Below, piece after piece: positions 5,065 to 50,308 of a DNA stretch of 52,104 bases. The number at the start of each line of letters is the position of its first letter. The stretch's first letter is position 1. The notes below the pieces were generated by a model, which searched no databases, was not told where the DNA came from, and saw only the letters and a list, made by a program, of their open reading frames with translations. The position numbers and the translations under genes were made by a program. The DNA is from a virus: the IMG/VR virus record IMGVR_UViG_3300009011_000017, positions 1 through 52,104 of that record. One strand, written 5' to 3'.

Positions 5065-5610
5065 TTACATCATCACTCGATTAGTAATCCAGCCAAAGAA
5101 AAACTGCTCTTGGCTTGGATTGCGTTCACAGATTTCAATGTAACGCTGTCCTTGCATAATATTAAGAACTCGCACTAACACTTTCTCACCTTCTTTGCCG
5201 CGCTTGGCCAAATAGGTTTTTAGAGCAGTTAACGTAGCAGGACCATAGATTCCATCTACTGATAGATCTGGCCAACCTGCTTTACCTTGATTATTTAAGA
5301 GGTTCAAAGCACGTTGCAGCAAAGGTTTTGCAAATCCGGTACCGCAATTTACACCTGTATCTAGAAGTTCTTCAGCAATAGCAGAAGAAACACCATTCAC
5401 CTGATCAAATCGCGGGGCTGTCCAGTACTGCTTCCGATAAATAGACTTGGCCACATCAAGCGGCAAGTCTTTCATGTTGCCTTTAAAACCATTTGTACGT
5501 GCTACTGCTTCAGTAATACCGTATTTGGTTGCACCGCCACGATCGGCTGGATTATTTACGTAACCGCCTTCGCGTTTAATGAGTTCTTCAAGATATTGTT
5601 CAATGTTCAT
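5065..5610 (-). CDS. endolysin, GH108 N-acetylmuramidase with peptidoglycan-binding domain
   Basis: 181 residues. The N-terminus carries the GH108 signature: catalytic Glu14 in REGGYVNNPADRGGATKYGIT (residues 13-33). The C-terminal half has the peptidoglycan-binding pattern VDGIYGPATLTALK. The enzyme cleaves the glycan strand of peptidoglycan at lysis. It has no signal peptide or N-terminal membrane segment, so it should need the holin encoded just upstream to reach the wall. It is the last gene of the late operon, and AAAGGAAAG precedes its start. A terminator-like hairpin separates it from the holin gene, so its level may be reduced relative to upstream genes unless antitermination acts. 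Confidence 0.92.
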   Translation of the reverse strand: MNIEQYLEELIKREGGYVNNPADRGGATKYGITEAVARTNGFKGNMKDLPLDVAKSIYRKQYWTAPRFDQVNGVSSAIAEELLDTGVNCGTGFAKPLLQRALNLLNNQGKAGWPDLSVDGIYGPATLTALKTYLAKRGKEGEKVLVRVLNIMQGQRYIEICERNPSQEQFFFGWITNRVMM

Positions 5611-5652: not shown

Positions 5653-6042
5653 TTAACTGTTTTCAATGTCTTTTCTGGCTTTCTTAACTTCTTTAAGTAC
5701 TTCAATAATCGTCTTACCTTCCTGTTTGTTAATAAAATTAAAGATCCAGCGAACTAAAGCCCAACCGGGTAAACCACAAACAAAGAAGAACCCACCAAGT
5801 GCAATCATCCCCCATATATCAGTAACCCATTCATGAAGCCACCACTTCACAATAATGAATGAGCCACCAGCAAGGCTTGAAACAACCGTACAGATCAAAC
5901 CTACAGCCCACTCTTGTGGTGAACGTGGCATACGTGTCATTAATACGACTGCTACAACCAAGCAGGCCGCCAAAGCCACTACAATTGCAAACCCATAAAA
6001 TTTTAATAGTGCTGTAAAACCGCTAGTGGAAACTGGTTCCAT
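5653..6042 (-). CDS. holin-like membrane protein
   Basis: 129 residues with three to four hydrophobic segments: FYGFAIVVALAACLVVAVVL (near residues 14-33), ICTVVSSLAGGSFIIV, WGMIALGGFFFVCGLPGWAL. The C-terminal tail is charged (KEVKKARKDIENS). Size, topology and position immediately before the endolysin indicate the lysis pore protein. The start has a good ribosome binding site (TGGAGAAATAAATG). The first ~17 codons and the upstream leader are duplicated as a fossil at 10166-10250. No dual-start motif typical of a holin/antiholin pair is evident. Confidence 0.82.
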   Translation of the reverse strand: MEPVSTSGFTALLKFYGFAIVVALAACLVVAVVLMTRMPRSPQEWAVGLICTVVSSLAGGSFIIVKWWLHEWVTDIWGMIALGGFFFVCGLPGWALVRWIFNFINKQEGKTIIEVLKEVKKARKDIENS

Positions 6043-6134: not shown

Positions 6135-8216
6135 CTAAGCTACAAAAATCTTGCTTACCACTATGAAATTTCTAGCATCAACATTATTGTTAGATATTTC
6201 ATTATTCTTAACTGTGGAATTACGGCTTGTTGTCAACACCATAATATTAAATAAACCATATCCATTAGGTGAATACAAATACTTACCAGTCCATTCACTT
6301 AAATTAACATTAGACTCAATGCACAAATTAGTTGTACCAAAAACAGAATCACCTCGAACAAATGCTGATATACCAGCAATAGTAATATTCGACAACCTAA
6401 CACTAACATCTGATGAATGTTTTAAATCTATGGGCTCAACTAATGGGGAGTTAACAACAACATTACCACCACCATTAAATGTAATATTACTACAAGAAAC
6501 TTTAAACCTATTGCTTATAGTTAGAGTTACATTCGGTTGAATTGTAAATACGATATTATGGATATTATTTAATAGAGAAAGGGTGTAACTAGTACTAATT
6601 GTTAAATTAGAAGTTAATATGATAGAACCGTCCCATAATAGACCCAATATTCTAATAGCTTCAATAACATCATCAAAAGACTGACAAGCAGTTGCTGAGC
6701 CAAGCCCTAATCCTTTTAAGCCAGTTCTGGCAGGATCTAAGTATATTGGTGTACGATAAGTATTAGATTGCGCTAATTCAATGCTCTGTATCAATCGTAA
6801 ATCAGACGAAAATGTACCACCAGTTACTTTAAATGTTGCAATATTTTTTAACTTTAAGAATCCATAATTTGTATATTGATCATAAGCTACGCCATCTACT
6901 AAATTGAATAGTGAATTATCAGCATAATATCCAGCGCCATCAAGTTCAAAAATATATCCACGCTCATTTGTCATTCCAAATGAATACACTACAGATGTTC
7001 CTGATCTTAATTGCATTGTGCGAATTGCACTCCAATCGTGAACTTGCACTTTAGCATTATAGATCATGAAGCAATGCATCATAATATCATTGGGTCCCTC
7101 AATATGCGGAGCTTGAATTGTTGCTCGTGTTCCAGAAGCTAATACATAAGGGCAACCCCACCCCTCTGTGACAGTATCGTAAATTGATACATCACCACCC
7201 TCGACAGTAATTGCAGATGTTAAATTCTTCTTGGTTTCCATTATAGAAGGGTAATACAACATACCATCTGTAACTGCTGAAGCTGCTGTGGAAACTTGAC
7301 GATTAATATAACAACCATTAATTACAGTACTACCAGTAGAACCACCAATATAGACCCCTTGATTGTGAGCTAGGATGCGACATTTATAGAGTTCAATATT
7401 CCAAGCGATAGTAAACAAGATACCAATTTTTGGAGATAGATCATCCTCGTTGTAATCACTCCATGATGATTGATTTTGAATAGATGCAAGAGTTCCTAGA
7501 GTGCCAATACCTAATTCTAAACGTCCAGACTCCAAACCAAATGCATTAACCCCAATCTTAGTTTTTTGCTTGGTAATCAAATTAAATCTAAAACTAGAAC
7601 CTCTGCACATAGAATGATTTGAAATTCCAGATGAAAAAGTAAAGAATTCCGTACTATCTGTGATAAGTTGCCATGCATTATTTACTCTTTTAAAAACTGG
7701 TAAGTAACAAGCAGCAACTTCCAGATTAGTCCCATCATAAAATAGTGTTGATCTATTTTTCTGAGTAGCCACTTCTGGTCGTGCAAAATAATTTAAAATC
7801 CCTTCACAAGTTACTGTGCCACGGCAAGGCAAGCGCAATGGTTGTGTATATCTATAACAGCCATGAGGTAAGTAAAATGTTAATGCTGGAATAGTATGTT
7901 GCAATGAATTAGGGTCTGTCGTGCCTCCTTCAGGATTGTAATGATGGTTAAAACAATTATAGAGTGCTTGGTAATCATCTGTAATACCATCGCCTACAGC
8001 TCCAAACCATTCCACATTTACCCAATTTTCAAGCGCAGCACGAACCCAACCATTTATAATAGTCCCATAATTGTTTATGTTGGATTTCTCACTGTTATAA
8101 AAAAATATTCCACCTCCTTTATTTAAACCATTATGTTAAGACTTCACATAAACAGTTTGCCCATTTACAGGATTTTGAATATTTAATAGGTCACTAATAC
8201 TTTCATATACTTCCAT
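6135..8216 (-). pseudogene. third tailspike / capsule depolymerase gene, nonsense codon at position 27
   Basis: The natural reading frame starts with ATG at 8216 (MEVYESISDLLNIQ...) and is collinear with the first tailspike (MEAYESVSELLSIQ...). Codon 27 (8136-8138) is TAA where the relative has Tyr in KSYYAG. After the stop the same frame stays open for the rest of the protein, including the pectate-lyase-like motif WFGAVGDGITDDYQALY and an Ile/Asn-rich beta-helix body. An alternative GTG start exists at 8015 (626 codons), giving a protein without the N-terminal particle-binding module. The remnant GGAGGTGG just after the stop, encoding the conserved Gly triplet, resembles a ribosome binding site, so restart cannot be excluded. 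Predicted role of the intact form: receptor binding and capsule degradation. Confidence 0.75.
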
Positions 8217-8296: not shown

Positions 8297-10033
8297 TTAT
8301 TTCGCTATAACATATCTAAAATTATAGTTGGCTCCCCCAGCAATTGGTTTTATATACAACCAACCATCTGTACCAACATAAACTTGTAATGGCTGCCCAT
8401 TATCAATAATTCCATTCGTATATTGCTGAACAGCTAGTGTTGTTGCCGATGATGAACTTGTCGATAGAGTTGATTTACGAATTGGAGCTGCTCCAAAATC
8501 ATAATATCGATCAGCTTCACCAGTTATACAACTTATTACTCTAAAATTAGTTGCATCGCCAAGATATAAAAGCTTTTTCCAAGAAGAATTGTTGTGCAAA
8601 ACTATCGCTAGAACCATTCCACTATCTTCACTGTATCGTGACTTTGCAAATCGACCAATATATGAAGAATCTGAGGCTTGGGCTGGGAAATTACTCCACT
8701 GATCATTACCTTGGCACTCGTTAAAGCTCCATGCACTATTTATCCCGGCCTCTTGAATAAATGTATAAAGTGCTTTTTGTTCCGTAGTAAGACCTTCCAA
8801 TGCATAACGCCAAGAATACGCATTAAATTGAATTGTAGAATCTTGAATAAATACTTTCGGAGTTAACGCAGCTACAGCGCTAGCTCCCACACTTCTACCA
8901 CTATTAATTGCTGAACTATCACAGTATTGAATGTAAAAGTCAGTTCCACGATGTCTCTCAGTCGAAGCCGTGATATTACTTCCTTTCAAAAACTGTAAAT
9001 TAATTGCAGGGTAACCTGTTGGTGAAGTTGGGTCTGTTCCACATCCGTCAGCATGGACAGTTAAGGAACTATAAGTTAATCCATATAAATCAATACCTAT
9101 ACGGTCGCAACGATCTGCGTAAATATTTGCACCATTTACAGATGTACCTCCACGTATTGCAGGTCCATAAACACAATTAATCCCCCAAATTTTATTTACC
9201 TGCGACATCCAGCAATCATCCTGCCAATACGCACGTTCATGCCCCGTACAAATAATATCTCTACGAATACTTTCAGGTGAACCATGAGCATAGTAGCCAT
9301 AACCCGTTTTATTGAGAGCAGTGCTTCTTGATAATTGCATACCAACAGTTATTTCACCGAATATTTGTTTGCTTCCCATTGCTGTTGTAGGGTGAACAAA
9401 AATAATAGCATCAACCCCCGAGATTGGGTAATTTGCAGAAATCACATTACTAGTTACCTTGCGCAATTCTGTATTAAATCCTCCTTGCCCTATAAGCGGA
9501 GGTACTCGCTGATTGATCTGAAACAATGCCAGTTCAATTACATCACTAGTGAAATACAGACCACTTGGCATAATAACTTTGCGCGGTGTTGAAAGACCAT
9601 TAGCAAGTTTCATGGCTTTTTTTAATGAAGCCATGATTGCTGCACAGTTCCAGATCATCGAATTATCATCGATCATTCCGAAATCTTGAGTAGCAATATA
9701 TATTTTGTTAGATTTCCTCGCCCAAATCCCATTTGTAGAATTTGTAGCAGTATAGTAGGCCTTAAAGTTGGCTAAGTTTGGAATTGGTATTAATGGATCT
9801 ATAAAATGACCACCATCATGCAAAGTTTTACTCGCATTAGCTAACCATTCAAACTTATCACCTCCCATATTTTTTCCTGCATGGAATGAAAGAACTTCAA
9901 CAACATGCCCATCACCCCTCGGTACTATATTGATCAATTCAGATATACTTGAGATTTTCTGAATTGTTTTATCATTAATCTGTTTTTGATTTTCTGAACC
10001 ATCAATTACATCTGTTGCATTTACTGTTGCCAT
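8297..10033 (-). CDS. second tailspike / tail fibre protein, beta-helix type
   Basis: 578 residues with ribosome binding site AAAGGT. It has a distinct N-terminal extension (MATVNATDVIDGSENQKQ) followed by a module related to the other two tailspikes: SISELINIV, then VVEVLSFHAGKNMGGDKFEW, matching SVSELLSIQ and VYLKSYYAGQNRGGGHFIY. The body is rich in Ile, Asn, Gly and short strands, as in right-handed beta-helix depolymerases. It would bind host capsule or LPS at the tail tip. It is intact, and so one of two usable receptor-binding genes. It sits directly downstream of a recombination scar (10086-10250). The sugar specificity cannot be read from sequence. Confidence 0.8.
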   Translation of the reverse strand: MATVNATDVIDGSENQKQINDKTIQKISSISELINIVPRGDGHVVEVLSFHAGKNMGGDKFEWLANASKTLHDGGHFIDPLIPIPNLANFKAYYTATNSTNGIWARKSNKIYIATQDFGMIDDNSMIWNCAAIMASLKKAMKLANGLSTPRKVIMPSGLYFTSDVIELALFQINQRVPPLIGQGGFNTELRKVTSNVISANYPISGVDAIIFVHPTTAMGSKQIFGEITVGMQLSRSTALNKTGYGYYAHGSPESIRRDIICTGHERAYWQDDCWMSQVNKIWGINCVYGPAIRGGTSVNGANIYADRCDRIGIDLYGLTYSSLTVHADGCGTDPTSPTGYPAINLQFLKGSNITASTERHRGTDFYIQYCDSSAINSGRSVGASAVAALTPKVFIQDSTIQFNAYSWRYALEGLTTEQKALYTFIQEAGINSAWSFNECQGNDQWSNFPAQASDSSYIGRFAKSRYSEDSGMVLAIVLHNNSSWKKLLYLGDATNFRVISCITGEADRYYDFGAAPIRKSTLSTSSSSATTLAVQQYTNGIIDNGQPLQVYVGTDGWLYIKPIAGGANYNFRYVIAK

Positions 10034-10066: not shown

Positions 10067-10085
10067 AGCACCCTAGCTGGGTGCT
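10067..10085 (-). terminator. terminator copied from the J gene end
   Basis: AGCACCC/GGGTGCT with a five-base loop and an A-run. The stem bases are the same as those of the terminator after the J-like gene at 12902-12919, so this is part of the duplicated segment. Confidence 0.75.
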
Positions 10086-10250
10086 AATCACATTAAACAT
10101 GTTTGTAATATTTTCCCTCAGTTTATCAATTGTTTTGTCAGTGGTGATACTCCGACTATTGCTGCCCCATAAAATTTTAATAAAGCTGTTAAACCGCTTG
10201 TGGAAACTGGTTCCATTTATTTCTCCAGAAAATTTAGACATAAAAAAAGC
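10086..10250 (-). pseudogene. recombination scar: holin 5' end fused to J-like gene 3' end
   Basis: Read on the - strand, 10250-10166 repeats the leader and first codons of the holin gene (5992-6077). It includes the ribosome binding site TCTGGAGAAATAAATG and MEPVSTSGLTALLKFYG, against MEPVSTSGFTALLKFYG in the holin. At about 10163 it switches to the 3' end of the J-like gene (12938 onward), reading AIVGVSPLTKQLIN against AIVGVAPLTTQLIN, and then enters the J terminator. The chimera would be a 32-residue frame (10118-10216) ended by a TGA where J has Gly. I read it as a fossil junction, not a functional gene, that places a second J-end/tailspike module behind an ancestral tailspike-holin border. 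Confidence 0.8.
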
Positions 10251-10271
10251 CCCAACATAAAGTCAGGGCTT
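10247..10271 (-). terminator. terminator after first tailspike gene
   Basis: AAGCCC/GGGCTT arms with an A-run on the low side. It corresponds to the terminator that precedes the intact holin at 6072-6100, so it belongs to the fossil holin leader. Confidence 0.6.
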
Positions 10272-10370
10272 ATGATGATTTATTGGATGAGAATAGAATT
10301 GCAAGTTCTTTGGGATAACTGCTCTTCAGGTTGTTTAAGCTTTCATAAGGTAAGCCTAAAAATATTTTCC

Positions 10371-12797
10371 TTAAACAATCTTTAATGTCACGATTGTGCT
10401 TGTAGTTAGGCTGGCACTAGTCAAGTTCTGATGATACAAGCGAACATTACCATTTGAAATAACTTCTGCCCACATTCTACTAGATGCACCCAATGAAGGA
10501 CTTGTACCTACCATTACTGGCGCTCCTAATGTAGAACGTTCTAGTGTTATATCCATTGACTTAATTTCATTAGCTTGTAGTGCGTTGCTATATGGAACGT
10601 TACGTCTACCAATGGCGTTAACATCTTTAATTGATGGAGCAAGCATAAAACCAACAGGAACAGAAACGGTACCAGTTGTTAAAGCTGACGGACCAGAAAC
10701 TATCAACTTCTTAGAATAAGAACTATTTTCATAAACTCGGCCAACAACATCATATTGTGAAGAGTTCAAAGTTATTCTAGAACCAATACCAACTCGACTG
10801 ATAACACTTGAAGTTGATGTATCAATTGTATTGGAAGCTACAATATTTAATTCAGCATTTGATGCAATATTATAGCGAGATGAATGAGTGTGTCCTCGTG
10901 ACACAATTAACCCATCTGAAGCAAAAGCTGTTGTTGTATTATAATGTGCTCTAAATACATCATTTGTTTCAAATGTACCACCAGTAGTATCGCTGACAAT
11001 CCATTCATTACCTAAATCACCAATTCTTGGCTCATAATCAGCATATGTTGGCATGAATGGAACTCCACCTGAGTATGCTCCAATATGCTCAATTTCAACT
11101 TGTGAATTTGCTGGAATAGTAATAGTAACATTGCCCTCCGACGCATTTTCAGAAGTGATCTCGCATGCTGCCATTTTCCATCCATTATTATAATCATACA
11201 TAACTTCACCAAGTGAAATACGTTCATTTGATGAGTTAACCCAAGAATTAGATTTTAAGTTAGCATAATTAAAGGTTCCCGAAATTGGACGATATAACAT
11301 ACAAACTTTCGTTTGTATTGATTGAGTGTTAATAGGAATAACTATATCTATTGATGAAGTTGTAGGGTTAATTAATCTGATTCCATATTTAGTTGTGAAG
11401 CCTGTATGTAATGACTGATGTCGTAAAACGTCATATATCAATTCATTACTCGATACTGAACAACCATATAAGCTATACTTAAAGTCTGCTTGAGGAAAGA
11501 ATTTAAAGAAATTAGTAATCAGAGATGCACCTGCGCCAAACTCAAAGCCAGAATGATTTAAATATTCGTTGTTTTGACGACCATTTGTAAAATGTCGGCT
11601 TGGAGTTCGAACACCTGTAGCGGGATCGTAAGTGCTATATGTGTTAGGAATGAAGCGGACACAAATATCTTCAGGATGCTTAAATAGATGACTAGCATCA
11701 AACTTGAAACCGTCGAAACGCTCTTGCATTTCAAGGTCAAATAGAATATTGAACCATTCAGAATATCCGCCCCCCCAATATGACCCATGACAAGCATCAT
11801 ATATTAGCGCCTTAGTCATATTCTGTTGATTAGGCGGGGCAATGTTGAAGCCGTTAAAACTTGAGCCTGCACCTTTATTGATAACCATGTAGTCAAATTT
11901 ATGTTTGCGCTGAACCCCAACAATATTTCCTCCACCAACTGTCAAATTGGAAGCTTGTAATACATTAGATGTATTATAAAAGCCTTGGATACATTCTTGG
12001 ATCGCGACGTTTTCAACAACATTCTCGTAAAAGTTTCCAATACGACTACCATTTGTCCACAATGATGTATCAATCCCATATAATGAAACGCCATTATCAA
12101 ATCGTTCAATAATAAGATTTTCAAGCCGCCACTTGTATGCGTTACCACCATCAATACATTTTCCAGCATGTAATGCTGCATCAGATACCCTTGAAACATT
12201 ACCAATCATAATCAAATTGGATATTCCTACCATGCCGATAGTTTGTGTATTCCAGCCTGTACTAATCTGATAGGCGGCTATCATTTCCTCTCGTGGAGTT
12301 GACCACATATCCTTTTTTGAGCTTGGGTTAAAGAACAAGGTAGAATTATTGCCCTCAATTTTTGTATTTGTTCTGATTGGTAATGTATCTGTGATGTAGT
12401 ATGAGCCATGTGGAATTTCAAATGTATATTTGCTAAATACATTAGAGGAAATAGCTTTACTAATATTTGTATGAATAACATATTTATTCATATTAAGCAT
12501 ATTCTTAAACGCTTGCGTGTCATCATGTCCAGATGCGTAATCAAGTACCTCTGGTGTAGTAAACACTAAATCTCCATAGGCCCCAAACATGTAGGGATTT
12601 AGCACATTGCTTTCAAGTTGGCGAACCCATCCATTAAAAACAGTTCCACTATCATTTTGGGTAGATTTTGTTGAATCATAAATAAAGTGGCCACCACCAC
12701 GGTTTTGTCCTGCATAGTATGATTTCAAGTATACAGTTTGACCATTCACAGGATTTTGAATGCTCAATAACTCACTAACACTTTCATATGCTTCCAT
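10371..12797 (-). CDS. first tailspike / capsule depolymerase, pectate-lyase-like beta-helix
   Basis: 808 residues. The N-terminal module (VSELLSIQNPVNGQTVYLKS, AGQNRGGGHFIYD) is the particle-attachment region shared with the two downstream tailspikes. A pectate-lyase-3-like motif follows (MFGAYGD and DDTQAFKNML near residues 92-120), then a long beta-helix region with repeated Asn/Gly strands. The last ~200 residues look like a separate C-terminal domain (IVSRGHTHSSRYNI, VGRVYENSSYSKKLIV). Such proteins cleave capsular polysaccharide and act as receptor-binding spikes. It is the first gene after the J-like tail tip gene, the normal position for the primary tailspike. Confidence 0.85.
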   Translation of the reverse strand: MEAYESVSELLSIQNPVNGQTVYLKSYYAGQNRGGGHFIYDSTKSTQNDSGTVFNGWVRQLESNVLNPYMFGAYGDLVFTTPEVLDYASGHDDTQAFKNMLNMNKYVIHTNISKAISSNVFSKYTFEIPHGSYYITDTLPIRTNTKIEGNNSTLFFNPSSKKDMWSTPREEMIAAYQISTGWNTQTIGMVGISNLIMIGNVSRVSDAALHAGKCIDGGNAYKWRLENLIIERFDNGVSLYGIDTSLWTNGSRIGNFYENVVENVAIQECIQGFYNTSNVLQASNLTVGGGNIVGVQRKHKFDYMVINKGAGSSFNGFNIAPPNQQNMTKALIYDACHGSYWGGGYSEWFNILFDLEMQERFDGFKFDASHLFKHPEDICVRFIPNTYSTYDPATGVRTPSRHFTNGRQNNEYLNHSGFEFGAGASLITNFFKFFPQADFKYSLYGCSVSSNELIYDVLRHQSLHTGFTTKYGIRLINPTTSSIDIVIPINTQSIQTKVCMLYRPISGTFNYANLKSNSWVNSSNERISLGEVMYDYNNGWKMAACEITSENASEGNVTITIPANSQVEIEHIGAYSGGVPFMPTYADYEPRIGDLGNEWIVSDTTGGTFETNDVFRAHYNTTTAFASDGLIVSRGHTHSSRYNIASNAELNIVASNTIDTSTSSVISRVGIGSRITLNSSQYDVVGRVYENSSYSKKLIVSGPSALTTGTVSVPVGFMLAPSIKDVNAIGRRNVPYSNALQANEIKSMDITLERSTLGAPVMVGTSPSLGASSRMWAEVISNGNVRLYHQNLTSASLTTSTIVTLKIV

Positions 12798-12901
12798 TTC
12801 TTTCGCCTTTTTAAATTAAACTTAACTTTTCGTTTTACATCGCTTGGTTTTAAATTAATAAATATTTACAACATTCACCCCCCTTAAATATGAAATAAAA
12901 A

Positions 12902-12919
12902 AGCACCCTATTGGGTGCT
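12902..12919 (-). terminator. terminator after J-like gene
   Basis: AGCACCC/GGGTGCT stem with TATT loop and preceding A-run (U-run on the - strand). The same stem recurs at 10067-10085. Confidence 0.75.
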
Positions 12920-12937
12920 CTAAGTTCTTTCAAAGTT

Positions 12938-15900
12938 TTAAAGGGTTTGTAAAATTTTCCCTCCGTTTATTAGTTGTGTTGTCAGTGGAGCTACTCCGAC
13001 AATTGCGGTACCACCCGCTCCGGGTTGACCTTCAGTTGTGCCGTGGTAATTCCAGTTCCATGTTCCATCGTTAGTGGACTTAGTGCCACGTTGCCCCCAA
13101 CCACCACCATCACCAGATAAAGGAGAACCATAGCGATCATTCTGAGTACGGTATCCTTTGCCCGGTATTGAAGTTTCAGCATCAGTAACTTTTACAACCA
13201 TAAAACTATCAATAAAGTACCACCGCCAGTCCTGAGTATCATTGTAGATTGGCTGTCCAGTCATAACTCGACCAAATGGCGCTCCAGCTCCCCCAGGAAC
13301 ACCCTGCACCCCATAGCCGAGTTCAGTGTAAATACCGCTAGGAGTTGCACCACCACCTGAACCTCCTCGAGCCAATTTTCCACCATCTATGATCAAATTC
13401 AATTTGCTGTGCCGGTTCATTAGTCCTGGTGCGCCTTGGAAACCATCACGGCGCGTTCTTGTGAAGTTATAATTTGGATCACTTGACCAAGCACCAAAGG
13501 CCAAATGTGGCAAGCCGCCATCACCACCGCGACCAACAACGGCTCCTTTAATCGTAAGATTTACGATCAAACCGGAAGGAAATTCCCCTGTATCAATCGC
13601 CGGTAATTCAGGAGCTGTAGGAACAATAAACTCCTTAGTTTCTGAGTTGTTAGTATGCTTATAAACCATTCTTGTTTCTGGTCGAAGTGAACTAGAACTC
13701 GAAACCAAAGCACCGGCTTCAACAATAAAGCTAATTTCTCCAGTCGTTGGCAAGTCACCTCTTTGCATCTGATATAACCGCGCCAGATTAATATCAAGCT
13801 GGTCGTATCGAATGTAAATCGGAGAATCATCAACTGGCACGTCAATAAAATCTTTATCGTTGAGGTAATACCGAACATCGTAATTTACTGCCGTAATGGT
13901 ATTTGAAAACTTATCAACCGGATCTTTCGTTGCTACCAGATAAGGTAATGACCCCTTTGTGTCGTCATTAACGACTGTATAAATCGTATTAACGAAATCA
14001 TCAGGGCTTAACTTTAATGCCCCGTTTGGTAAGCGACCTAAAACAACTTTGTTCTTAGCAGATCCAGCAGTAACAGGAATCAAATCGACACTCCCATCAC
14101 CAATTTGTAAATAAATCACGTAGCTCTTGCCTGCTATAAAATCAACATCATGGCTCAATGTAAGAATTAAACCTTCTTGCTGCACCACCTCGCCGCTTTG
14201 ATGGATGCCATTTCGATAATCAGCTACAGCGATGCGTTCACGTAAAACCAGTAATTCTGATTCTGGAGCTGCATCAAATGTGATGGATTTGCGCTGAAAA
14301 CGGAGCTTGTTCCAAAGCCGGTATGCATTGAAATGGGCTTGCCACTTATTACGCACACCTACCGATTTTACCTCTTTAGGGTTCTTAGCTCCTTTATCCG
14401 GTAAATAGATATTGATACGACTATCATCGGACGGATCCGTGTATTCATAGATCAGGCCATCGTAGTCATTCATTACACCAAAGGTCAGGTCATGCTTATA
14501 ACTATCTGGAATGATATTCCTAAAATTAAACAGTAACACCGAGTTATCAGTTGGCCGCTCAAAATAGATCTTGAGCTTATTATTTTGCCAATAGGCCGTA
14601 CAAAACACAGCATCGCAAAGATTGGTGGCCAGCTCTTCAAAAGAAAGGTTTGTGTCATCAATGGTGGTACAGAACTCTGCGGCTAACGGTGTGCCAAAGT
14701 AATCGACAATATCGTTATAAGTCCGATATATATTTTCAATATCGATCTCATCCGTCGTGCGGCGACCGATCTTATCATCGAGTGCCATTGAGACCAGCGC
14801 ATCAGCAAAGCTAGACGTTGGAAATAATTCTGTCGTCATTGCTCCATTTTTGTAGGTAGGCAACATCCGCTGAAGATCAAAATTGATCTTGCGCGATTTA
14901 ACCGACAATGCTCCAGTCGTTGCATATGTACGTGCACGGAAAACTGTTTCATGTTCATATGTTGTGCTTTGCAAAGGATAAGCACCGTACAACGCTTGCC
15001 ACTTCACATCATCGACAACAGTGGTAACTCCAGGAGTTGGAGTTAAGCGACGAACACGTACACTACAGCGCCCCTGGAATGTGACCATATCCAGCGTTGC
15101 ACCAACTGTTTGCCGCGACTTAGCCGAGCCCTTGAGAATGATCTGCTTTAGCATAGGGTTGCCAATAGCTGCACCAGATTCATTCACTGGAGTAACTTCA
15201 ACCTCAATTGTCACGTTTACAGCTGCCTGATTTCCCCCTGAAGAAACGGTATAAAGTCCATTTGTAGCCACAAAATTACAAAGCACTCGACTACGTTCAA
15301 TATTGTCTAAGATGAATGGACCAATCCATTTCTCACCAATGGATGCAAGCTTTGGAGATGCAGCACCTGTTTGCTGATTTGATAGCTCTTTTAGCTTTAA
15401 CCAGTTCGGATTGACCGCAGCAGGATTTGATAAAGTCATACGATCATCAGCAACAGATAGAACGCTATAAGTGCCGTTTAAATCGTAGATTTGACCGTTA
15501 TAAGTAAATGAAGCATTGGTGATTTCAACGCGGTCATTGCTGACAAATTTGGTGGTTAGATCTGTATTGTTTGCAGCTGCTCGAAGAATCTCGTTTGGGT
15601 ATGCGAAAAGAAGGTAGTTGGTCCCTTGTAAAGTTTGTGTATCAGCTGGCCGTAATACTTGACCATTAACAGAAGTTTGATGCTGTACTGTTAAAGGTGG
15701 CGTAGTGATTTCAGTACCAATCGAAAAGTAAGGTTCTCCTGAAACAATATCTACACCTGGTCGGAAGACTTCTACAGATGCACCAGCAATATCTACAATG
15801 TTAGTTTCACCATCGTAAGCACCGCTGATTTTATAGTGGCCACGGCCTATGCAGCCGACCATATGCTCAACTTCAATGTTATTTTCATAAACTTTATAAG

Positions 15901-16357
15901 GCACTGCTATTGAATCGGGCGTATCCCAAGCAGCTCCATAAATATCTGCAATGCGGCCATTTACCCGGATCTTATTTTCGCGGTTTGAAAGTTCGTTATT
16001 TGCTGAAGATGATTGATTAATATTCTGGGTTGTCTGAGCCATTGAAGGCGTAGGCATTAAAAAAGCGATCGCAATACTAATTACAATCGAAACGATCGCA
16101 GCAACCCATTTCGGGTTCTCAATGACAATAAAAGTACCTGGTAAAAAATCGAGCTGTTTTAAGTCATATGCATTTTTAGGTGTTACTTCATTCGCAAAAG
16201 AGATTTCCGCATGATCCATATTGCTAGCAGTGTAAAAAATACGGATGTGCTCAGGCATGTAATCATATTTAGAAGTAAGCCATTGCCCTATTGTGTTGGC
16301 ATGCTCAATAGTCTTTTCTTCAGACAAAGCATCTTGCTTATAAATAACTTTAATCAT
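12938..16357 (-). CDS. tail tip / host specificity protein J-like
   Basis: 1139 residues, the size of lambda-J-type tail tip proteins. The N-terminal domain is followed by a hydrophobic segment (WVAAIVSIVISIAIAFLMP, ~105-123), a feature common in this family, then a long beta-rich core. The C-terminus is Gly-rich (GRGGDGGLPHLAFGAW, RGGSGGGATPSG, SGDGGGWGQRG), as in tail tip proteins that present spikes. It closes the tail tube and transmits receptor contact. It overlaps the upstream NlpC/P60-like gene by 8 bases, as in the lambda K-I-J block. Its 3' end is partly duplicated at 10086-10163. Confidence 0.88.
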   Translation of the reverse strand: MIKVIYKQDALSEEKTIEHANTIGQWLTSKYDYMPEHIRIFYTASNMDHAEISFANEVTPKNAYDLKQLDFLPGTFIVIENPKWVAAIVSIVISIAIAFLMPTPSMAQTTQNINQSSSANNELSNRENKIRVNGRIADIYGAAWDTPDSIAVPYKVYENNIEVEHMVGCIGRGHYKISGAYDGETNIVDIAGASVEVFRPGVDIVSGEPYFSIGTEITTPPLTVQHQTSVNGQVLRPADTQTLQGTNYLLFAYPNEILRAAANNTDLTTKFVSNDRVEITNASFTYNGQIYDLNGTYSVLSVADDRMTLSNPAAVNPNWLKLKELSNQQTGAASPKLASIGEKWIGPFILDNIERSRVLCNFVATNGLYTVSSGGNQAAVNVTIEVEVTPVNESGAAIGNPMLKQIILKGSAKSRQTVGATLDMVTFQGRCSVRVRRLTPTPGVTTVVDDVKWQALYGAYPLQSTTYEHETVFRARTYATTGALSVKSRKINFDLQRMLPTYKNGAMTTELFPTSSFADALVSMALDDKIGRRTTDEIDIENIYRTYNDIVDYFGTPLAAEFCTTIDDTNLSFEELATNLCDAVFCTAYWQNNKLKIYFERPTDNSVLLFNFRNIIPDSYKHDLTFGVMNDYDGLIYEYTDPSDDSRINIYLPDKGAKNPKEVKSVGVRNKWQAHFNAYRLWNKLRFQRKSITFDAAPESELLVLRERIAVADYRNGIHQSGEVVQQEGLILTLSHDVDFIAGKSYVIYLQIGDGSVDLIPVTAGSAKNKVVLGRLPNGALKLSPDDFVNTIYTVVNDDTKGSLPYLVATKDPVDKFSNTITAVNYDVRYYLNDKDFIDVPVDDSPIYIRYDQLDINLARLYQMQRGDLPTTGEISFIVEAGALVSSSSSLRPETRMVYKHTNNSETKEFIVPTAPELPAIDTGEFPSGLIVNLTIKGAVVGRGGDGGLPHLAFGAWSSDPNYNFTRTRRDGFQGAPGLMNRHSKLNLIIDGGKLARGGSGGGATPSGIYTELGYGVQGVPGGAGAPFGRVMTGQPIYNDTQDWRWYFIDSFMVVKVTDAETSIPGKGYRTQNDRYGSPLSGDGGGWGQRGTKSTNDGTWNWNYHGTTEGQPGAGGTAIVGVAPLTTQLINGGKILQTL

Positions 16358-49186: not shown

Positions 49187-50308
49187 ATGGCTCTACCTAT
49201 TATTACTGCTGACCAAACTTTGTTGGTTCAAGCAATTATTGTGTACCTATACGCTGATCCAGGTTTAGGTAAAACGTCTATGGGTTTTACAGCGGACAAA
49301 GCTATTTCATTCGACTTTGACCGTGGTGCTCACCGTACTGGTGAACTTCGTCGCGGTGCAGTTGTTCAGGTCCAACAATGGAAAGATATTGCTGATCTAA
49401 CACCACAAGACCTTGCACCTTATAAAACAATTGTTATTGATACTGTAGGCGCAATGCTTGAATGCATTAAAACTCATTTATTACTCACGGCGAACAACCG
49501 TCAAAAAGATGGTGCATTAAAGCTTAAAGCGCAAGGTCTAGCTAACCAGACATTCAAGCAATACATCAATACATTGATAAGCCTTGGTAAAGATGTGGTG
49601 TTCATTGCCCATGCTTCTGAAGATCAAAACGGTGATCAAATTATTTATCGTCCAGATCTAGGCGGTAAAAACCGTAATGAGCTTTACCGTATCGCCGACA
49701 TTATGGGTTATCTAACCACTGTTACTACGGGTGAAGGTAAAAACGCCCGTGTCATTAGTTTCAAACCTTCTCCTACCCATCATGCGAAAAACTCAGGTGC
49801 ATTAGGCGGTGAAACTGGTGAAGTGTGGGTTCCAGATCTTAAATCTAATCCAACTTTCTTGGCCGATCTTATCACCCAAGCGAAGGAACATATTAATACC
49901 CTGACACCTGCACAATTAGCTACTGCCAAAGCTCAAGAAGAATTTGAGAACTGGAAGCAAAGCTGTGAAGAAGCCGAGCATGCTGGTGATTTAAATCAAT
50001 TAACTGAGTCGCTTGATAAAGAACATATGTATTACCAGAACATGCGCCAAGCAATGTTGATGCGCTCAAAAGCCTTGAATTGCACGTTTGATAAAGAACG
50101 CGGTGTATGGATTAGTCCACCAGAATTTAATGCTATCTCCGACCAACAAAGAGATGAGCTTCAGAACTTCATTGGTGAGCGCGGCCTCGATGTGAAAACA
50201 GTTTGTGAGCATTTCGGTATTGATGCCCTAACTCAAATTGAAGCGGCAAAACTACCAGCAGTTAAACAAGAAATTGAAACATTGGCTAAAACGGGGATGA
50301 CAGCATGA
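49187..50308 (+). CDS. Sak4-like RecA-fold ATPase / single-strand annealing protein
   Basis: 373 residues. Walker A ADPGLGKTS (residues ~23-31), acidic DFDRGAHRT after it, and Walker B IVIDTVG (~81-87), with a later FIAHASED. This is the phage AAA_24/Sak4 type, a small RecA-like protein that promotes annealing of single-stranded DNA in recombination. The C-terminal third (TPAQLATAKAQEEFENWKQS on) is a separate helical extension. It starts after AAGGATAATAAAA and overlaps the next gene by four bases. Confidence 0.85.
   Translation: MALPIITADQTLLVQAIIVYLYADPGLGKTSMGFTADKAISFDFDRGAHRTGELRRGAVVQVQQWKDIADLTPQDLAPYKTIVIDTVGAMLECIKTHLLLTANNRQKDGALKLKAQGLANQTFKQYINTLISLGKDVVFIAHASEDQNGDQIIYRPDLGGKNRNELYRIADIMGYLTTVTTGEGKNARVISFKPSPTHHAKNSGALGGETGEVWVPDLKSNPTFLADLITQAKEHINTLTPAQLATAKAQEEFENWKQSCEEAEHAGDLNQLTESLDKEHMYYQNMRQAMLMRSKALNCTFDKERGVWISPPEFNAISDQQRDELQNFIGERGLDVKTVCEHFGIDALTQIEAAKLPAVKQEIETLAKTGMTA

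Follow-up and report, generated by a model that had tools for sequence, protein, structure and literature searches.

A molecular fossil of a holin gene start fused to a J gene end between two spike genes of an Acinetobacter phage

The window considered here is the whole 52,104-nucleotide stretch of the IMG/VR virus record IMGVR_UViG_3300009011_000017. It belongs to an Acinetobacter phage of the Vieuvirus type, with homologous tape measure, J, holin and lysozyme genes in the same order. On the minus strand, the cluster runs J, spike A, hol'·J', spike B, spike C, holin and lysozyme, where hol'·J' denotes the start of a holin-like gene fused to the decayed end of a J gene. The features of this cluster, together with a recombinase gene encoded elsewhere in the window, are the following:

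12938..16357, minus strand: J, intact tail-tip or central fibre protein, 1139 aa (PHROG 469, E=4e-286; phrog_31, 'central tail fiber J')
12900..12921, minus strand: J terminator of the long-spacer type, a 9-pair stem followed by a T run
10371..12797, minus strand: spike A, 808 aa, with a MEAYES-type head (phrog_23909 tail fiber, E=2e-23; phrog_4250 EPS depolymerase)
10158..10284, minus strand: hol', leader and first 20 codons of a holin-like gene, by similarity to contig G179 and to the window's own holin start
10247..10271, minus strand: first scar terminator, 3' of spike A, a 10-pair stem
10118..10216, minus strand: hybrid ORF hol'·J', 32 codons, by in-frame translation
10158..10164, minus strand: join zone CAGCAAT, common to both halves, where the alignment to G179 stops and that to contig G177 starts
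10086..10164, minus strand: J', decayed J gene end, aligning with the J end of G177
10067..10085, minus strand: second scar terminator, that of J', a 7-pair stem followed by a T run
8297..10033, minus strand: spike B, 578 aa, with a MATVNA-type head (phrog_24271 tail fiber, E=3e-13)
6135..8216, minus strand: spike C, with a MEVYES-type head, broken by an in-frame TAA; its first 26 residues match a G177 spike
5653..6042, minus strand: the window's own holin-like gene, 129 aa, adjoining the lysozyme (PHROG 1024, no function assigned)
5065..5610, minus strand: lysozyme, GH108 and PG_binding_3 (Pfam PF05838, PF09374)
49187..50308, plus strand: Sak4-like ssDNA-annealing recombinase (phrog_124, E=2e-89; Pfam AAA_24)

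The J protein shares approximately 90% identity with its counterparts in Vieuvirus-type phages. All three spikes are predicted tailspike or tail-fibre proteins, A and B by family match and C by its A-like head. The head of spike A matches PDB 24qi and 6e1r, both tailspikes, and the protein matches the tailspike of phage 3060-K85 at 47% across its full length. Homologues of spike B were found in G177 (39%) and in locus L087 (55%), and its structure model is poor (pLDDT 53.6). Spikes A and C have a common head (40% over 173 aa), while the body of spike C gave only weak tail-spike matches (24%). Codon 27 of spike C, inside the conserved head, is a TAA (8138-8136), after which the frame is open to 6135; this inactivation looks recent and, as it breaks spike C, the working spikes are probably A and B. 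The window's own holin-like protein has a single strongly hydrophobic stretch close to the N-terminus in addition to two that are weaker, and a homologue of its gene is annotated 'holin class I' in MZ326864; its size, position and hydrophobic stretches fit a putative holin.

Between spikes A and B lies the scar, which occupies 10284-10067 on the minus strand and comprises a leader, a terminator and the start of a holin-like gene (hol'), and then the J gene end (J') with its terminator. A preliminary description had recognized the joining of a holin start to a J end inside the spike cluster, and the alignments bear this out: over 102 nt, hol' is 89% identical to the start of the window's own holin, with a local alignment score of 155, and J' aligns to the end of the resident J with a local score of 100 over about 120 aligned positions, 69 nt of which align ungapped at 84%, against a best score of 32 among 486 random stretches of the window. 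The fusion proposed there, between 10086 and 10250 and with 17 holin codons, proved slightly larger and contains 20 codons, and the cluster around it holds three spikes, not two. The hybrid ORF (10216-10118), in which the two halves are fused in frame, reads MEPVSTSGLTALLKFYGAAIVGVSPLTKQLIN. J' has decayed, with an in-frame TGA, at which the hybrid ORF stops, where the functional J ends compared carry GGA, and with a 1-base insertion relative to the J class that precedes spike B. The homology at the crossover is small, a shared word of 7-8 bp (CAGCAAT/T), and the position of the crossover is known to a precision of 7 bases. The word common to the window's own holin and own J alleles is GCAATTGT; a shared word of at least 8 bases occurs in 0.16% of random holin by J pairings of these two alleles. 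The scar is thus a real and well-supported molecular fossil, and the holin and J fragments in it are best explained as non-functional leftovers.

Searches for the fused segment elsewhere covered several collections. The hol'·J' junction was not found as an exact degenerate pattern in 2.9 million IMG/VR contigs, and it was absent from 176 Acinetobacter genomes, in which non-baumannii species are represented by one genome each. Among phage records, the best two-piece matches opened had the ordinary order of J then holin, with no fused segment. In the 263 partly redundant loci with a match to either scar part, none had a holin before J within 3 kb; J lies less than 200 bp from the holin in 174 of their 183 J-holin pairs, and in nearly all relatives the holin is directly 3' of J. 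Conservation of the segment in unrelated phages, which the first account had named as speaking against its reading, was seen neither in IMG/VR nor in the 176 genomes, the phage records or the 263 loci. No description of the hol'·J' joint was found in the literature.

The spikes themselves had few relatives in these collections. No relatives of the spike A or spike C proteins were found in IMG/VR, which yielded one relative of spike B, in a myovirus-like tail, and the 176 genomes gave no match to spike C or to the exact head pattern. A scan of IMG/VR with J-end DNA returned at least 86 distinct J ends, all readable downstream sides of which are a holin-type gene, of three types; among the matches listed, none had a spike directly after J, the pattern having demanded a J-holin-type spacer, such that J-spike loci surfaced only with spike-head patterns. 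In the plasmid collection, the J-to-lysis spans among the matches listed are without spikes.

The parental arrangements do occur separately in relatives, in two IMG/VR contigs that are not complete isolate genomes: G179 for the hol' side and G177 for the J' side. G179 contains J, an A-headed spike, two further spikes, and then a scar-like terminator and holin start, and it aligns with the hol' side at about 91% over 127 bp (leader, terminator and holin start). Its terminator between the last spike and the holin has 25 nt identical to the first scar terminator, whereas the window's own holin leader differs; the leader from J to spike A in the window closely matches those of G179 and L294. The proposal that spike A was once followed directly by a holin finds its terminator and holin start in G179, but there two further spikes stand between, and no exact sister with the order J, spike A, holin was found among the loci examined. 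In G177, the last 51 residues of J are followed by a homologue of spike B and by a spike with the first 26 residues of spike C, the order J'-B-C suggested below for the second parent. The alignment of G177 to the scar spans 208 bp, starting exactly at CAGCAAT and continuing through the terminator and leader to codon 25 of spike B. A full J-lysis block is also carried by G177, separate from the J'-B-C block. On its reverse strand (L309, approximately 5400-5500), the last 51 residues of J are fused in frame to an apparent nuclease-like gene, a second and different J truncation upstream of the same spike B- and C-like module.

That spike B once directly followed a J gene is corroborated by the junction from J' to spike B, which aligns both in G177 and in L206, a prophage of A. 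calcoaceticus DSM 30006 (the same DNA as IMG/VR L292). L206 is also the single-spike sister with a clean J-spike-holin order that had been predicted. Its spike starts MATVNAIDVIDG, similar to the MATVNATDVIDG of spike B, and its J-to-spike junction aligns with that of J' and spike B through the terminator into the first codons of the spike. Thus L206/L292 resembles the window in its J-to-spike-B-type junction and its spike-to-holin leader, and differs in having one spike, no scar and another spike body. A second junction of J with a MATVNA spike is present in L291. In L296 and L297, J is followed by a spike with an A-type head, a spike with a MATVNA head and the holin, and the scar is absent.

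The two halves of the scar differ in allele. Over the 20 codons, hol' has 5 synonymous and no non-synonymous differences from the G179 holin start, compared with 4 synonymous and 4 non-synonymous differences from the window's own holin; hol' is nearest to G179 and other GAAI-allele holins, and the own holin to FAIV alleles. A short spacer between the J stop and terminator was seen only in J-spike-B loci (L206/L292, L291 and G177) and in the scar; the resident J of the window has the long one, as do the J-spike-A loci and the J-holin locus used for comparison. In the 57-nt coding stretch of J', no other J is closer than that of the window itself, which has 8 differences, so that the lineage of J' rests on the spacer, leader and spike head. 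Given that the hol' alleles and the J' spacer class match different sisters, the scar halves come from two lineages, each unlike the resident copies.

Other loci of the family carry further genes around the J-lysis region. In IMG/VR loci such as L101, L114 and L119, one J end is followed by any of three unrelated holin-type genes, and for this reason the J/lysis boundary appears to be a general exchange point. The J-holin gap of A. pittii ANC 4050 (L204, 11836-12258) holds a reverse-oriented 140-aa ORF with a lipoprotein-like start, and so takes other insertions too. In several sisters with spikes, L206 (14235-15149), L297 (4683-5555) and L308 (G179), the holin and lysozyme are separated by an additional ORF of about 260-300 aa whose product is apparently secreted. 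In phage Ab1656-2 (L005), the region that follows the lysozyme carries annotations for a TonB-dependent receptor and the phosphoethanolamine transferase EptA. ORFs of 772 and 348 aa lie between the tandem J-holin-lysozyme blocks of L044 (7196-14899; also in L097).

The preliminary description had left open whether two related genomes recombined or one genome was duplicated in tandem, and the alleles of different sisters favour the former. A tandem duplication, in which slippage at the shared word doubled a segment from J end through one or more spikes to holin start and the spikes subsequently diverged or were exchanged, would yield an identical gene order, and the common head of spikes A and C agrees with it. 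It is nevertheless unlikely, since the J ends belong to different spacer classes and the holin starts to different allele classes, each resembling another sister, and the A/C head is widespread in other Acinetobacter spikes. Repeat copies nearest to each other, as expected from duplication, were observed neither for hol' nor for the J' spacer, the J' coding stretch alone being neutral; duplication followed by allele replacement is a conceivable variant. It is highly improbable that a bare J-holin junction, the commonest arrangement in the family, was duplicated first and received spikes independently in each copy, because J' has the spacer and leader of a J-spike-B locus and hol' a spike-holin terminator. 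These are spike-locus types, and hence both junctions would already have had spikes.

The intact ribosome-binding leader, the 32-codon ORF and two good terminators might suggest a selected functional element, such as a small regulatory peptide from a truncated holin, a double terminator or a recombination linker. Against this, which is about as improbable as independent spike insertion, stand its absence from every relative searched, the non-synonymous changes, stop and insertion of the J' part, and the moderate hydrophobic stretch of the hybrid (1.41 at best versus 2.99 in the full holin). The window is known from a single contig, as an assembly chimera of two phages would be, but the shared word of 7-8 bp is below usual assembly overlaps and the decay of J' would be unexpected in a working J gene, making this the least probable reading of all.

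Very probably, then, the scar was made by a non-allelic crossover between two related Acinetobacter siphophage genomes, or by a deletion between tandem prophages. A microhomology join of two genomes, by co-infection or in tandem prophages, fits better than duplication within one genome, because the alleles in both parts of the scar are unlike those of the resident J end and holin start. One parent would have had the order J, spike A, terminator, holin, and the other J', spike B, spike C, holin. A break about 20 codons into the holin of the first and another about 18 codons short of the J' end in the second would have been joined at the shared 7-8 bp word CAGCAAT/T. The product would keep J and spike A from the first parent, and spikes B and C with the intact holin from the second; as it retained this holin, spikes would have been gained with no essential gene lost. 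Deletion of the DNA between two such tandem prophages would give the same arrangement. Tandem or adjacent related prophage blocks do occur, as in G177 and in L044/L097, where two J-holin-lysozyme blocks lie 7.7 kb apart. A single event may have given the whole arrangement, with both parents present in one cell, although the flanks could have been swapped by later homologous exchange. Phage-type annealing recombinases are known to work on short as well as diverged homologies (PMC2327257, PMC3945230); the Sak4-like recombinase is a possible agent of short-homology joins, and may have taken part in this one. It is possible, if rather doubtful, that the spike arrays of these phages grow stepwise through microhomology joins driven by the Sak4-like annealase, made end to end at the J/holin boundary between prophages that share a cell and often lie in tandem, with the scar and the nuclease'-J' fusion of G177 as frozen steps.

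Illegitimate joints in mosaic temperate phages of the lambda type (PMC2327257, PMC3945230) are similar in that a join with little homology is flanked by modules from different relatives, a recombinase is phage-encoded, and the gene order is otherwise preserved. In the window, likewise, the two sides come from normally non-adjacent positions, the crossover homology is little, and two parental genomes are indicated, with later allele replacement possible. The window differs in that the join is non-allelic and duplicated the J end and holin start instead of swapping modules, which is why pieces of both neighbouring genes persist within the spike array. The sections of PMC9102105 on individual Acinetobacter prophage tailspike depolymerases and their domains likewise describe conserved particle-binding N-terminal parts and exchangeable enzymatic bodies, to which the window adds a spike array and a joint. 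Vieuvirus B1251-like siphophages have J, holin and lysozyme about 90% identical to those of the window and in the same order; in B1251 and most relatives the J-holin gap is without a spike, whereas that of the window is occupied by three spikes and the scar.

Spikes determine which bacteria phages infect, and the acquisition of multiple spikes is usually invisible, as recombination leaves no trace. In the scar the trace persists, and parent-like arrangements can be named on both sides. The kind of event is already known, as illegitimate recombination and phage mosaicism, and the scar is an unusually readable example of it. It also offers a concrete example of receptor-binding genes accumulating in the J-holin interval of a widespread Acinetobacter prophage family, in which extra spikes may broaden the capsules recognized and the host range. 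In essence, the scar very probably records an end-to-end splicing of two related phages that left one with additional spikes.
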